A DNA stretch of 22,747 nucleotides from a virus: the IMG/VR virus record IMGVR_UViG_3300035698_005120, positions 1 through 22,747 of that record, one strand, 5' to 3'. Positions 19,445 to 22,747 of the stretch are shown piece after piece. The number at the start of each line of letters is the position of its first letter. Position 1 is the stretch's first letter. Position numbers and translations under genes: made by a program. The notes under the pieces were generated by a model. The model had not been told where the DNA came from. It made no database searches and saw nothing but the letters and a program-made list of their open reading frames with translations.

Positions 19445-19735
19445 ATGACAAACGAACCCACAACCGGCGACCTCATCCGCGCCGCGCGGCTCGCCCGAGG
19501 GAAAAAGCTACACGGGACGCTGACCACATACCGGTCAGACGTCGCGGCGAAAATCAGCCCGGCAGAGATGTACACCCAGACCGATCTAGCCGCAGATGCT
19601 GGCTGTGCCGCCTCGCAGATATCATCCTGGGAACGAGGGGAAAAGAAGCCGACCGTCGATTCTCTAATCAAGCTGGCCGCCGCCCTGGGCGTGCCGGTGG
19701 CGGATCTGCTGCCGTCCGTTGTCGCTCGCCCGTGA
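19445..19735 (+). CDS. XRE/Cro-CI family HTH regulator
   Basis: This 96-aa DNA-binding protein has the XRE signature: GDLIRAARLARGKK as helix 1, then TQTDLAADAGCAASQISSWERGEKKPTVDSLIKLAAALGVPVADLL. Between helix 1 and the HTH core there is an unusual 25-30-residue insert (LHGTLTTYRSDVAAKISPAEMY). It has only the HTH domain, with no CI-type protease or dimerisation domain, so it looks more like Cro or a small repressor. AGGAG lies 8 nt before the ATG. It probably shares the promoter at 18996. Direct repeats flank its stop codon, and the palindromes at 18996-19023 are candidate operators. Confidence 0.85.
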   Translation: MTNEPTTGDLIRAARLARGKKLHGTLTTYRSDVAAKISPAEMYTQTDLAADAGCAASQISSWERGEKKPTVDSLIKLAAALGVPVADLLPSVVARP

Positions 19736-19841: not shown

Positions 19842-19863
19842 GCCCGCAGATTGCGGGCTTTTT
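19842..19863 (+). terminator. rho-independent terminator
   Basis: GCCCGCA (19842-19848) pairs perfectly with TGCGGGC (19852-19858) across a 3-nt loop and is followed by TTTTT. It terminates the XRE transcript. Confidence 0.85.
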
Positions 19864-19870
19864 CATGCGC

Positions 19871-19929
19871 CGATCTGGTGTAGTGGATTGTGGTTCCAGG
19901 GGCGGGGGGTCCGAATCCCCTCAGCCACC
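19871..19929 (+). pseudogene. tRNA-like remnant lacking an anticodon arm
   Basis: A T-arm-like element has stem GGGGG (19905-19909), loop TCCGAAT and CCCCT (19917-19921), then a 7-nt 3' acceptor-like CAGCCAC and a discriminator base. Upstream, TGGTGTAGTGGATTG resembles a tRNA D-arm. No anticodon arm or matching 5' acceptor fits, so this is not a working tRNA. It may be a tRNA 3' fragment captured at an attachment site or by recombination. The 236-bp gap between 19736 and 19971 otherwise holds the direct repeats and a terminator. Confidence 0.35.
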
Positions 19930-19971
19930 CTCTCTTAACTGAAAAACAAGTAATAGAAAGGGGAGCAAGTT

Positions 19972-20416: not shown

Positions 20417-20496
20417 GCAGCGAAACGCGACGGGGACCGTTAGTCGTAAGACGCGGGCTGTGCTTAAGCAGTTTTCAGCCCCGTCGCGTTTCCTGC
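20417..20496. repeat. long inverted repeat / large stem-loop
   Basis: GAAACGCGACGGGG (20422-20435) is the exact reverse complement of 20479-20492. The arms extend by GCAG (20417-20420) with CTGC (20493-20496) across one bulged C, giving 18 bp around a loop of 43 nt. The loop holds TGCTTAAGCA (20461-20470) and GGGCTG (20455-20460), which can pair with CAGCCC (20476-20481) as a competing fold. It separates the minus-strand gene from the HTH gene. Confidence 0.75.
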
Positions 20497-20525
20497 TTGC
20501 AAAATCTAACGGTACTGCTACAATG
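20497..20525 (+). promoter_or_regulatory. promoter/operator of the HTH gene
   Basis: The -35 is TTGCAA (20497-20502), the spacer is 16 bp and the -10 is TACAAT (20519-20524). The sequence AAATCTAAC (20502-20510) followed by ggtact matches the left part of the palindromic operator found downstream at 20795-20818; the right half here is degenerate. Transcription is expected to start near 20531, at the ATG. Confidence 0.72.
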
Positions 20526-20530
20526 AGAGG

Positions 20531-20770
20531 ATGTCAATAGTGGATACTGACTTTCGTTTTCTGTCTGTCTCTGAAGCCGCTGAAATCCTCGGTGTTTCTG
20601 GTGGTCGTGTACGCCAATTGCTAATTGCTGGCCTTCTGAAAGGTCACAAATTAGGTGAAAAGCAGTGGGCTATTGACCCCGCAGAAGTTGCCCAGAGAAA
20701 AATTAAGCCGACACCAAGAGGGCGGCCGTGTCGCAAATCCATGACGGCAACCGACTTAAAAAAAGTATGA
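20531..20770 (+). CDS. small HTH DNA-binding protein (excisionase/MerR-like HTH)
   Basis: This 79-aa protein has a winged-helix HTH of the excisionase/HTH_17 type: FLSVSEAAEILGVSGGRVRQLLIAGLLKG, then HKLGEKQWAIDPAEVAQ (residues about 10-56) and a basic tail KIKPTPRGRPCRKS. It could be an excisionase or a lysis-lysogeny regulator. The predicted -10 at 20519-20524 puts the transcript start at the ATG, so the mRNA may be leaderless. A GTG at 20540 with GAGAGG 9 nt upstream is an alternative start if transcription begins earlier. Matching operator elements before and after the gene suggest that it regulates itself and the downstream genes. Confidence 0.82.
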   Translation: MSIVDTDFRFLSVSEAAEILGVSGGRVRQLLIAGLLKGHKLGEKQWAIDPAEVAQRKIKPTPRGRPCRKSMTATDLKKV

Positions 20771-20789
20771 TATTTTTTCGTCACTGCTA

Positions 20790-20818
20790 TTGACAAATCT
20801 AACGACACTGTTAGATTT
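20790..20818 (+). promoter_or_regulatory. promoter with perfect palindromic operator
   Basis: TTGACA (20790-20795), a 16-bp spacer and TAGATT (20812-20817) form a promoter. AAATCTAAC (20795-20803) and GTTAGATTT (20810-20818) form a perfect inverted repeat separated by 6 bp, spanning the spacer and -10. It aligns closely with the element at 20497-20525. It should drive the DUF3820-like gene and perhaps the integrase, and be blocked by a bound repressor. Confidence 0.8.
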
Positions 20819-20846: not shown

Positions 20847-20900
20847 CGGGCCTGAAAACCCGCTTAAGCACCTCTCGACGCCCTCTTGCGTCACGGGTGC
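20847..20900 (+). promoter_or_regulatory. structured leader upstream of the DUF3820-like gene
   Basis: CGGG (20847-20850) pairs with CCCG (20859-20862). A second hairpin pairs GACGC (20877-20881) with GCGTC (20888-20892) inside GCACC (20868-20872) and GGTGC (20896-20900). The stretch 20848-20870, read in reverse complement, resembles TGCTTAAGC..TTTTCAG of the stem-loop at 20461. The role is unknown. Confidence 0.4.
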
Positions 20901-20975: not shown

Positions 20976-21278
20976 ATGAATGGTGATGACCTAATGCTGT
21001 TTGGAAAGCACAGAGGCAGGCCGCTTTCTAAGGTGCCTGAGCGGTATTTTCACTGGCTTATCCAGCAGGAATGGCTCGAACACCACCCGCTTCTGGTGCT
21101 GTATGTCGAGGAGCGACTTGGCCTCGAATTCAACCCGCCGCGGAAGCCTAGAAAGTGCGTTCTCACTACTTGTGGCACCGTAACCGGGGATTTATACGAT
21201 CCCTCCGCTAATGATGGAACATGTCCGTTTAACGCGGAAACCACGTTGAATCCAGTTGAACCTTTCATTAACACTTAA
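20976..21278 (+). CDS. DUF3820-like protein
   Basis: This 100-aa protein has the core LMLFGKHRGRPLSKVPERYFHWLIQQEWLEHHPLLVLYVEERLGLEF, which fits the DUF3820 pattern (FGKYKGKPL..P..Y..WL). Its biochemical role is unknown. The tail has four cysteines. Several starts are open, including TTG 20937 and ATG 20994. I chose ATG 20976 because it gives a compact N-terminus, but no convincing SD is visible, so the start is uncertain. It lies downstream of the palindromic operator. From its stop to the integrase start there are 143 bp with no supported gene. Confidence 0.75.
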   Translation: MNGDDLMLFGKHRGRPLSKVPERYFHWLIQQEWLEHHPLLVLYVEERLGLEFNPPRKPRKCVLTTCGTVTGDLYDPSANDGTCPFNAETTLNPVEPFINT

Positions 21279-21421: not shown

Positions 21422-22306
21422 GTGATTGCCCCAGCGGGGAAGACCATCGAATCGTTTTTCGAGAAAACCTACCGGCCACTTCGGCTGCTAGGTCGGGCTG
21501 CCGGTACGGCGGAATCCTACTCGATTACCATGCTGCTGTGGGGCCGATACATGGGCAACATGCCGCTGCGGGAGATCGACGACATTGCGGTGGCCGAGTA
21601 TGCCCAGGCCCTGCTACGGAAGCAGAAGCCGCCCACGGTGAACAAAAACCTACGGCAACTGGGAATCATCCTGCGATTCGCAATGGCCAAGGGCAAGATC
21701 AAGGCAGTGCCAGAGATTCCCAAACTCAAAGAGAATCTGGCGATGCCGCGTGCGTTCCTGCTGGAAGAGATAACGGCGATCCTGCGGGCAGCTCGACAAG
21801 TACCCGGCGACCTCGCTGGGATCAAGGCTGCCGACTGGTGGGAGTCGCTGCTGCTCACGTTCTACGATTGCGGCGGTCGGATCGGGGCCGTGCTGGCCAC
21901 TCCAACTGCGAACATCGACATCCAAGGCGGCTGGATAATGCTACCGGCGGACTCGCAGAAGCAACATCGCGGGCAGGACTTGCGGCTGCATCCAGACACG
22001 GTGGACGTCTGCAAACGAATCTGGACCAGCGACCGCGAACTAATGTGGCCCTGGCCGTATTACAAGAGCGTTTTATACAGGCATTTCCGGCGGATCCTCA
22101 AAACGGCAGACGTGACAACCTGGCGGGGCACGGGCACGTTGTTCCACCGCATCCGAAAATCGTGCGCCTCATACTCGGCAGCCAACGGGCTCGATCCGGT
22201 GGTGCAGATGGGGCACAGTTCCCCAGCCGTAACGGCTCGCTATCTCGACGAGCGGATCATCGGCAGGACACACGCGATCGACGTACTGCCCAGGCCAACT
22301 CTCTAA
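21422..22306 (+). CDS. int: tyrosine-family integrase
   Basis: This 294-aa recombinase catalyses phage integration and excision. The N-terminal core-binding domain includes TAESYSITMLLWGRYMGNMPLREIDDIAVAEY. The catalytic domain shows Arg153 (in GGRIG), His242 and Arg245 (in FHRIRKS), His265 (in GHSS) and the nucleophile Tyr274 (in ARYLDE), a complete pattern; a Lys in the SQKQHRG segment is the likely sixth residue. There is no arm-binding N-terminal domain of lambda size. The start is GTG at 21422 with GGAG 7 nt upstream. A long overlapping frame from 21256 is rejected as a shadow. The attachment site is probably nearby. Confidence 0.92.
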   Translation: MIAPAGKTIESFFEKTYRPLRLLGRAAGTAESYSITMLLWGRYMGNMPLREIDDIAVAEYAQALLRKQKPPTVNKNLRQLGIILRFAMAKGKIKAVPEIPKLKENLAMPRAFLLEEITAILRAARQVPGDLAGIKAADWWESLLLTFYDCGGRIGAVLATPTANIDIQGGWIMLPADSQKQHRGQDLRLHPDTVDVCKRIWTSDRELMWPWPYYKSVLYRHFRRILKTADVTTWRGTGTLFHRIRKSCASYSAANGLDPVVQMGHSSPAVTARYLDERIIGRTHAIDVLPRPTL

Positions 22307-22482: not shown

Positions 22483-22747
22483 ATGAACTTACAAGACAAA
22501 TTTTCAGAATGGCAACGTCTGAGCATTAAGAAGACATTGACCAAAGACGAAGCCCTGGAGGCTGTCAAACGTAATGGCTACTCGCTCCGGTACGTCAAGG
22601 ATCAGAGTGAGGCCAGCTGCATCGAGGCTGTCAAACAGGATGGCTACTCGCTCCGGTACGTCAAGGATCAGAGTGAGGCCAGCTGCATCGAGGCTGTCAA
22701 ACAGGATGGCTACTCGCTCCGGTACGTCAAGGATCAGAGTGAGGCCA
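22483..22747 (+). CDS. DUF4116-like repeat protein, 5' part only
   Basis: The frame begins at ATG 22483 with AGGA 8 nt upstream and is open to the window end, giving at least 88 residues. A short unique start (MNLQDKFSEWQRLSIKKTLT) is followed by 22-residue repeats with the core EAVKQDGYSLRYVKDQSEAS. The AVKQDGY..LRYV pattern resembles DUF4116-type repeats, found in proteins of variable length and unknown function. The repeats are nearly identical in DNA, so copy number may vary. It lies beyond two terminators after the integrase, so it may be host DNA at the prophage edge or phage cargo. Its length and end cannot be seen. Confidence 0.72.
   Translation, partial: MNLQDKFSEWQRLSIKKTLTKDEALEAVKRNGYSLRYVKDQSEASCIEAVKQDGYSLRYVKDQSEASCIEAVKQDGYSLRYVKDQSEA
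22558..22747 (+). repeat. 66-bp perfect tandem repeat inside the terminal gene
   Basis: Units start at 22558, 22624 and 22690, the last cut by the window edge after 58 bp. Units 2 and 3 are identical over the visible length. Unit 1 differs only around CGTAAT versus CAGGAT. The unit is exactly 22 codons, so gain or loss keeps the frame. Confidence 0.93.

Follow-up and report, generated by a model that had tools for sequence, protein, structure and literature searches.

The stretch of DNA analysed here (hereafter, the window; 22,747 bases) is one IMG/VR virus record and probably represents a fragment. In the window, genes for terminase, capsid and tail proteins are followed by a small control region and then by a tyrosine integrase gene; no early replication genes were recognised on this contig. 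The control region and its flanks include the following features:

19445-19735: CI-like HTH_3 gene, 96 aa, about 0.8 kb upstream of the HTH_17 gene (Pfam HTH_3, 4e-14)
20497-20524, plus strand: promoter of the HTH gene itself, -35 TTGCAA (20497-20502), 16-nt spacer, -10 TACAAT (20519-20524), from the promoter scan
20505-20522, plus strand: putative self operator TCTAACGGTACTGCTACA, predicted to be the weaker one, left arm intact, right arm degraded, 4 of the 7 outer pairs symmetric
20531-20770, plus strand: HTH_17 (MerR/Xis-type winged helix) gene, 79 aa, encoding the proposed repressor of both promoters (Pfam, PHROG, fold prediction)
20790-20817, plus strand: downstream promoter, -35 TTGACA (20790-20795), 16-nt spacer, -10 TAGATT (20812-20817), from the promoter scan
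20795-20818, unstranded: putative downstream operator, predicted to be the stronger one, perfect palindrome AAATCTAACGACACTGTTAGATTT; relatives have TTCTAACGCCGACGCTAGAATA in the same geometry
20976-21278, plus strand: ORF with a QSregVF_b domain, 100 aa, the first gene past the downstream promoter (Pfam, 1.2e-4, just above the cut-off)
21422-22306, plus strand: tyrosine integrase, 294 aa (PHROG integrase, 3e-23); its relatives adjoin the HTH gene

Several additional elements surround these features. A strong hairpin with a perfect 14-bp stem (GAAACGCGACGGGG/CCCCGTCGCGTTTC) and a 43-nt loop (20418-20495; -47 kcal/mol, z -4.8) ends just before the HTH promoter, and the HTH gene is bracketed, outside the operators, by inverted near-copies of GGGC(C)TGAAAAC-NN-GCTTAAGCAC (20453-20483 and 20848-20871). 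A degenerate tRNA-His-like stretch (19856-19930), uncalled by ARAGORN, is a candidate attP core or a decayed tRNA; its 3' half is nearly identical to the tRNA-His of several Planctomycetota genomes, which is a hint as to the host. At the end of the window (22483-22747), an ORF that contains in-frame tandem repeats of 66 bp and by eye resembles DUF4116 runs off the contig.

The two promoter elements belong to one direct-repeat family (24 nt, 79% identical, at 20497 and 20790) and thus lie 293 bp apart, as described in an earlier note on this DNA that interpreted them as twin operators of a compact lysogeny-type switch. Both promoters were recovered independently by the promoter scan as sigma70-like, with 16-nt spacers (TTGACA/TAGATT, 10/12; TTGCAA/TACAAT, 9/12). 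The perfect palindrome reported for the downstream element, AAATCTAAC-N6-GTTAGATTT, is exact at 20795-20818, where it lies across the TTGACA-16-TAGATT promoter; this 24-bp sequence has no other match in the window at up to 3 mismatches and no match in 100 dinucleotide shuffles of the window. The right half of the upstream element is degraded, likewise as described (CTACA vs GTTAGA). In both sites, an 18-mer beginning with TCTAAC starts 2 nt past the -35 and extends over the first 4 nt of the -10; aligned in register, the self site reads TTGCAA-aa-TCTAACGGTACTGCTACA-at and the downstream site TTGACA-aa-TCTAACGACACTGTTAGA-tt. The palindromes therefore overlap the -35 and -10 elements of the regulator's own promoter and of one other promoter, which is the arrangement typical of a phage operator-repressor switch. 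Only two operator-like sites are present in the window. The -10 of the self promoter ends 6 nt before the ATG at 20531, from which a leaderless HTH mRNA is predicted. The half-site AAATCTAAC by itself occurs in the window at chance frequency, so what makes the elements significant is the palindrome, their geometry and their conservation among relatives.

The 79-aa protein belongs to the HTH_17 family (PF12728; 2e-7, 31.6 bits against the curated cut-off of 27), its best and sole clear Pfam match, and is weakly matched by excisionase PHROGs. Structure prediction gives a winged HTH at modest confidence (pLDDT 64), and the nearest solved folds are those of Pukovnik Xis (1.5 A over 46 columns, Foldseek E 0.023), RacA and BldC (1.4-1.7 A over 45-49 columns), with MerR-family regulators and RdfS also among the structural matches. 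A PDB sequence search with the HTH profile gave no match, and no relative of the protein was found among 50,697 deposited phage records. The protein contains neither an HTH_3-type domain nor the C-terminal dimerisation/peptidase domain of CI-type repressors. Given the CI-like HTH_3 gene at 19445-19735, however, the earlier claim of a switch built around a small HTH protein rather than a CI-type repressor may not hold for this phage.

The HTH_17 relatives of known function (RdfS, BldC and Pukovnik Xis) are excisionases or direct-repeat binders, which counts against a repressor. The protein might instead be a recombination directionality factor with an additional function in transcriptional control, comparable to Apl of phage 186, P2 Cox, XisF4 of Pf4 and RdfS, with excision as its main job and autoregulation as a secondary one. 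In addition to the weak PHROG matches and to the presence of Pukovnik Xis and RdfS among the structural neighbours, the gene order is compatible with such a function: the HTH gene adjoins the integrase gene in the window as well as in relatives, and the stronger site of the window would control the promoter before the integrase. Specifically, this site reads into the QSregVF_b-domain ORF and the integrase, with no evident lytic operon, which counts against the switch as proposed; because the integrase is encoded on the same strand downstream of the site, after that ORF, the strong operator would control the integrase transcript. Furthermore, RdfS, an HTH_17 excisionase, represses its own promoter via a weaker site (PMC11963761). 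The form of the sites argues otherwise: directionality factors recognise direct repeats one helix turn apart, as in the case of Apl (PMC7498355), or, as in the case of RdfS, sites without a consensus, whereas the conserved sites here are strict inverted repeats inside promoters, although further sites of another kind may exist. Moreover, the sites recur at several early promoters (see below), and no half-site within one mismatch is found near the tRNA-His-like segment, the attP candidate. The comparison of HTH alleles, which bears most directly on this alternative, is discussed further below.

A search with the HTH protein followed by alignments yielded about 40 loci with a close HTH ortholog, one of which is a provirus in a Pirellulales MAG. 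In all but two of these loci, a relative of the integrase adjoins the HTH ortholog; the exceptions are L077 and L085, in which the contig begins less than 300 bp before the HTH gene. The integrase gene is divergently transcribed from the HTH gene in the relatives, whereas in the window the two are on the same strand. Conservation of the sites was assessed in 24 non-redundant relatives selected by HTH similarity, each taken from a locus with a divergent integrase relative, using a 12-letter consensus derived from the window alone and counting as a site any match of at least 9/12. A downstream site within 260 bp past the HTH stop is present in 17 of the 24 relatives (mean 1.4 and maximum 5 in 200 shuffles; 2.3% of control windows from the same loci), and an upstream site within 60 bp before the ATG in 9 of the 24 (shuffles, mean 0.15 and maximum 2; same-locus controls, 0.8%). 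The search for palindromes beside homologous HTH genes, whose failure the earlier note had named as one refutation of its interpretation, found them in nearly all 24 relatives. In most of these, palindromes lie before the HTH ATG and again past the stop, within TTGAC-16-TA(G)NNT promoters, and the upstream spacing is kept, with the 18-mer starting 26 nt and the -10 ending 6 nt before the ATG. In L088, for example, TTGACG-cc-GCTATTTCCGGCGTTAGT-at precedes the ATG and TTGCAC-gt-TCTAACGCCGACGCTAGA-at follows the stop. The self site is missing in L002, whose HTH gene overlaps with the end of a preceding HTH gene and may do without its own promoter. Dyads with 7-base arms past the HTH stop are in excess at most of the spacings tested, the excess being largest at gaps of 4 and 6.

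The graded binding proposed in the earlier note, with a strong downstream site and a weaker self site, fits the window well and holds in part among the relatives: by consensus score, the self site is the poorer one in 14 of 25 non-redundant loci, with two ties and nine loci showing the reverse, the latter belonging mostly to variant-operator groups that were scored against the present consensus. The possibility that the elements are chance matches to promoter-like and palindromic patterns could draw on the ordinary frequency of the half-site in the window and on the occurrence of the exact 18-letter palindrome in 39 other IMG/VR contigs that have no evident relation to the locus, relatives having been collected through the HTH- and integrase-based searches. 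Since the relatives keep the elements in position, geometry and sequence, this explanation is refuted, and its probability appears negligible.

The sites appear to be specific to the phage control region. The relatives usually have an additional, third promoter downstream that often contains two tandem sites and leads into early replication and recombination genes, which suggests that the HTH protein maintains lysogeny as a repressor in these phages. Strong sites are confined to the switch region in 14 virus records (13-46 kb), the usual arrangement being one site past the HTH gene and, between some hundred and 1,300 bp beyond it, a tandem pair. Several operator copies within one phage are thus restricted to the early control region, as expected of an operator-repressor switch. 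Two relatives of 45-46 kb encode RecT, a primase-polymerase, a sliding clamp and similar functions. In G001, the Pirellulales MAG (3.2 Mb), the variant TTCTTACG-N4-CGTAAGAA occurs at up to one mismatch only three times, in each case within about 1.05 kb beside the HTH ortholog and ahead of successive early genes, and the other matches all have three mismatches, at the level of the control. G001 was the only clear provirus in the phylum and order scans of Planctomycetota genomes.

Searches that did not start from the HTH protein gave a similar picture. A DNA-only search of viral contigs with the 18-letter promoter-operator pattern TTGNCNNNTTCTAACGNCGNNGCTA retrieved 39 contigs, 15 of which carry an HTH ortholog and an integrase; among the remaining ones, one holds a truncated copy of the operator pair (a tandem pair near the contig end), and the other 23, all unrelated, are isolate contigs with copies of one near-identical sequence. 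A search with the integrase only produced 61 loci; after one profile iteration, an HTH_17-like gene was recognised in 43 of them. Of the 4 loci with a close HTH ortholog, 3 show the TTCTAACG palindrome (at least 13/16), which is absent from the remaining 57.

Some further observations were made in the relatives. A conserved AGTTTCGACTCC(C/T)C element lies 30-60 bp past the tandem operators (L088, 2760-2800; L051, 1700-1720; L111, 4314-4335; and their relatives) and resembles a tRNA 3' end; as an attachment site it was discarded, with no match in 98 Pirellulales genomes, no tRNA and no Rfam match. A second integrase with two consecutive HTH_17-like genes in the same Pirellulales MAG (L064, 6001-6490) is accompanied neither by the palindrome nor by an obvious twin dyad and was treated as a distant paralog. 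In L084 (4001-4177), an HTH_17-like match is located between relatives of the window's own terminase and portal genes. In a 46-kb relative (L133, 4158-4478), a 107-aa protein has a LexA DNA-binding domain (3e-15) but lacks a peptidase domain.

The HTH_17 protein could act after infection in the manner of Cro, as an early regulator damping early transcription and its own synthesis, with lysogeny maintained by another protein, either of the HTH_3 type or unseen. In the relatives, the HTH gene and the early operon share a strand, which would suit a Cro-like role, and HTH_3-like genes are found nearby, in the window and, by reading, in L002, where one precedes and overlaps the HTH gene. These genes count against the switch as proposed and indicate that a second regulator exists in some of these phages; a protein with a LexA DNA-binding domain is also encoded elsewhere in one relative. 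Most relatives, for their part, have no room for a further regulator gene between the integrase and HTH genes, and no HTH_3 or S24 repressor domain is found in the two relatives of 45-46 kb, among the matches listed (25 of 28 Pfam families). Together with the exchange of alleles along with their operators, which is the behaviour of immunity repressors, these observations make the Cro-like alternative quite improbable.

Phage promoters are sometimes under host SOS control, and the palindromes are of the size of a typical dimer site, so that binding by a host regulator recruited by the phage, for instance a planctomycete LexA, also was considered; no usable literature on this idea was found. The TTCTAACG form argues against a host regulator, since TTCTAACGNNNNCGTTAGAA, at up to 2 mismatches, is not enriched over the reversed control in 147 Pirellulales genomes. 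In G001, moreover, the variant at up to one mismatch is found only in the provirus, and the operators differ between phages with near-identical integrases. A host regulator is accordingly a very remote candidate.

The more distant relatives of the integrase are associated with divergent HTH_17-like genes and with different palindromes in the same promoter geometry. In L239, TCTACCGGCAGCGGTAGA precedes the ATG and TTTACCGATACCGGTAAT lies past the stop; the corresponding sites are GGTTCCGCAGCCGGTACC and GGTTCCGATATCGGTATC in L242, and in L222 AGGCGAGATAACTCGCCA is found past the stop. The sequence TACCG-N4-CGGTA is found in L207, L239 and L202, exactly three times per locus and always just after TTGAC: before the ATG, past the stop and about 0.5-1.4 kb further, which reproduces the layout of the TTCTAACG group. 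When 26 HTH groups, defined as sharing less than 60% identity, were compared, upstream regions were more like the downstream region of their own group than like those of the other groups (permutation p=5e-5, the smallest value possible with 20,000 permutations), and this likeness exceeds that of random stretches of the same locus (Wilcoxon p=1.7e-4). The resemblance of the twins is individually clear in about 9 of the 26 groups and thus is general but not universal. The retention of the twin layout in divergent relatives, each with its own palindromes, suggests that it is the HTH protein that binds them. We considered a simple residue-to-base code, relating recognition-helix changes in L085, L114 and L069-type proteins to the changes in the operators, and abandoned it as inconsistent at some sites.

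The integrases and the HTH proteins do not diverge in concert. The integrases of L096 and L207 are 97% identical, whereas the HTH proteins are only 39% identical and the operators are different; between L003/L010 and L237, the respective values are 92-93% and 31%, and among L239, L241 and L242, 94-99% and 29-44%. In some phages, pairs of integrases with 92-99% identity thus accompany HTH proteins with only 29-49% identity and different operators, and in the swapped pairs the DNA similarity stops near the start of the HTH gene. An excisionase is expected to stay matched to its integrase, whereas an immunity repressor is expected to be exchanged together with its operators. Strongly diverged HTH alleles with different operators beside integrases of 92-99% identity are unexpected for a protein that evolves with its integrase, and it is mainly on account of this swapping that we infer a repressor in preference to an excisionase: the pattern appears to be the signature of exchanged immunity specificity rather than of an excisionase tied to its integrase. 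A primary role in excision thus seems unlikely.

Taken together, these observations make it reasonably likely that the locus is a compact temperate-phage regulatory switch in which an HTH_17 mini-repressor controls itself and the downstream early promoters. The 79-aa protein would most likely bind, probably as a dimer, to an inverted repeat of the generalised form TTCNNACG-N4-CGTNNGAA (ATCTAACG-N4-TGTTAGAT in the window) that fills the space between the -35 and the -10 of two promoters, so that binding would block RNA polymerase. The self site, with one degraded arm, ahead of the HTH gene and its probably leaderless transcript, would provide for weaker negative autoregulation, and the near-perfect site past the HTH stop for stronger repression. 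The protein and its operators would diversify and be exchanged together beside near-identical integrases, in the manner of immunity specificity. As far as sequence goes, the interpretation offered in the earlier note is supported, and the larger finding would be a repressor-operator cassette that is swappable across the whole family. The positions, geometry and conservation of the sites, the repetition of one operator within a phage, and the joint diversification and swapping are seen in the sequences themselves. Dozens of uncultured phages and one planctomycete prophage show this layout, with different operators, beside related integrases, and it probably represents a lysogeny switch with swapped specificity.

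A bolder generalisation, which we put forward tentatively as having nearly even chances, is that a large family of uncultured, Planctomycetota-linked temperate phages has HTH_17 mini-proteins of the excisionase fold as its only immunity repressors, and that the allele and about three palindromic operators are exchanged as a cassette beside a fixed integrase, yielding many heteroimmune types from one protein of 75-80 aa that possibly also serves excision. To our knowledge, the regulation of planctomycete phages has been little studied. Should the proposed switch be real, immunity groups could be read from metagenomic contigs at the sequence level, as an operator word combined with an HTH allele; the locus would offer a minimal single-domain repressor system for studies of DNA recognition; and the natural series of HTH_17 alleles with predicted targets would make the recognition code of this fold testable. 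It also would caution against calling every integrase-adjacent HTH_17 protein an excisionase.

In the CI/Cro system of phage lambda, operators lie within promoters, the repressor is autoregulated, the sites are graded and the cI mRNA from PRM is leaderless. All these features, as predicted here, are shared by the HTH_17 locus. Unlike CI, however, the HTH_17 proteins are winged-helix proteins (74-81 aa) that lack an HTH_3 domain as well as any C-terminal domain for oligomerisation or cleavage, and the operators bracket the repressor gene on one strand, whereas those of lambda are located between divergent promoters. The HTH_17 protein shares the fold class and the position next to a tyrosine integrase gene with RdfS and Pukovnik Xis. 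RdfS of ICEMlSymR7A oligomerises along DNA without a consensus motif, and its self-repression through a weaker site sets a precedent for a graded self site (PMC11963761); the present system differs in the strict inverted repeat of about 20 bp in several promoters and in alleles that are untied from the integrase. Apl, Cox and XisF4 are small excision-associated regulators of lysis-lysogeny promoters (PMC7498355, PMC7379572), and their likeness to the HTH_17 protein would be functional, with no sequence relationship claimed. Since XisF4 and P2 Cox combine excision with the control of such promoters (PMC7379572), a dual role in excision and regulation remains conceivable here. BldC and MerR-like single-domain regulators have the same winged-helix fold; as cited in PMC11963761, BldC binds direct repeats as head-to-tail multimers, whereas the sites in the present system are inverted repeats. 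The pattern of exchange itself has a broader parallel. In heteroimmune temperate phages, the repressor and its operators change together while other genes stay near-identical; compared with these phages in general, the swapped module described here would be distinguished by an excisionase-fold protein encoded beside the integrase, in uncultured phages linked to Planctomycetota.
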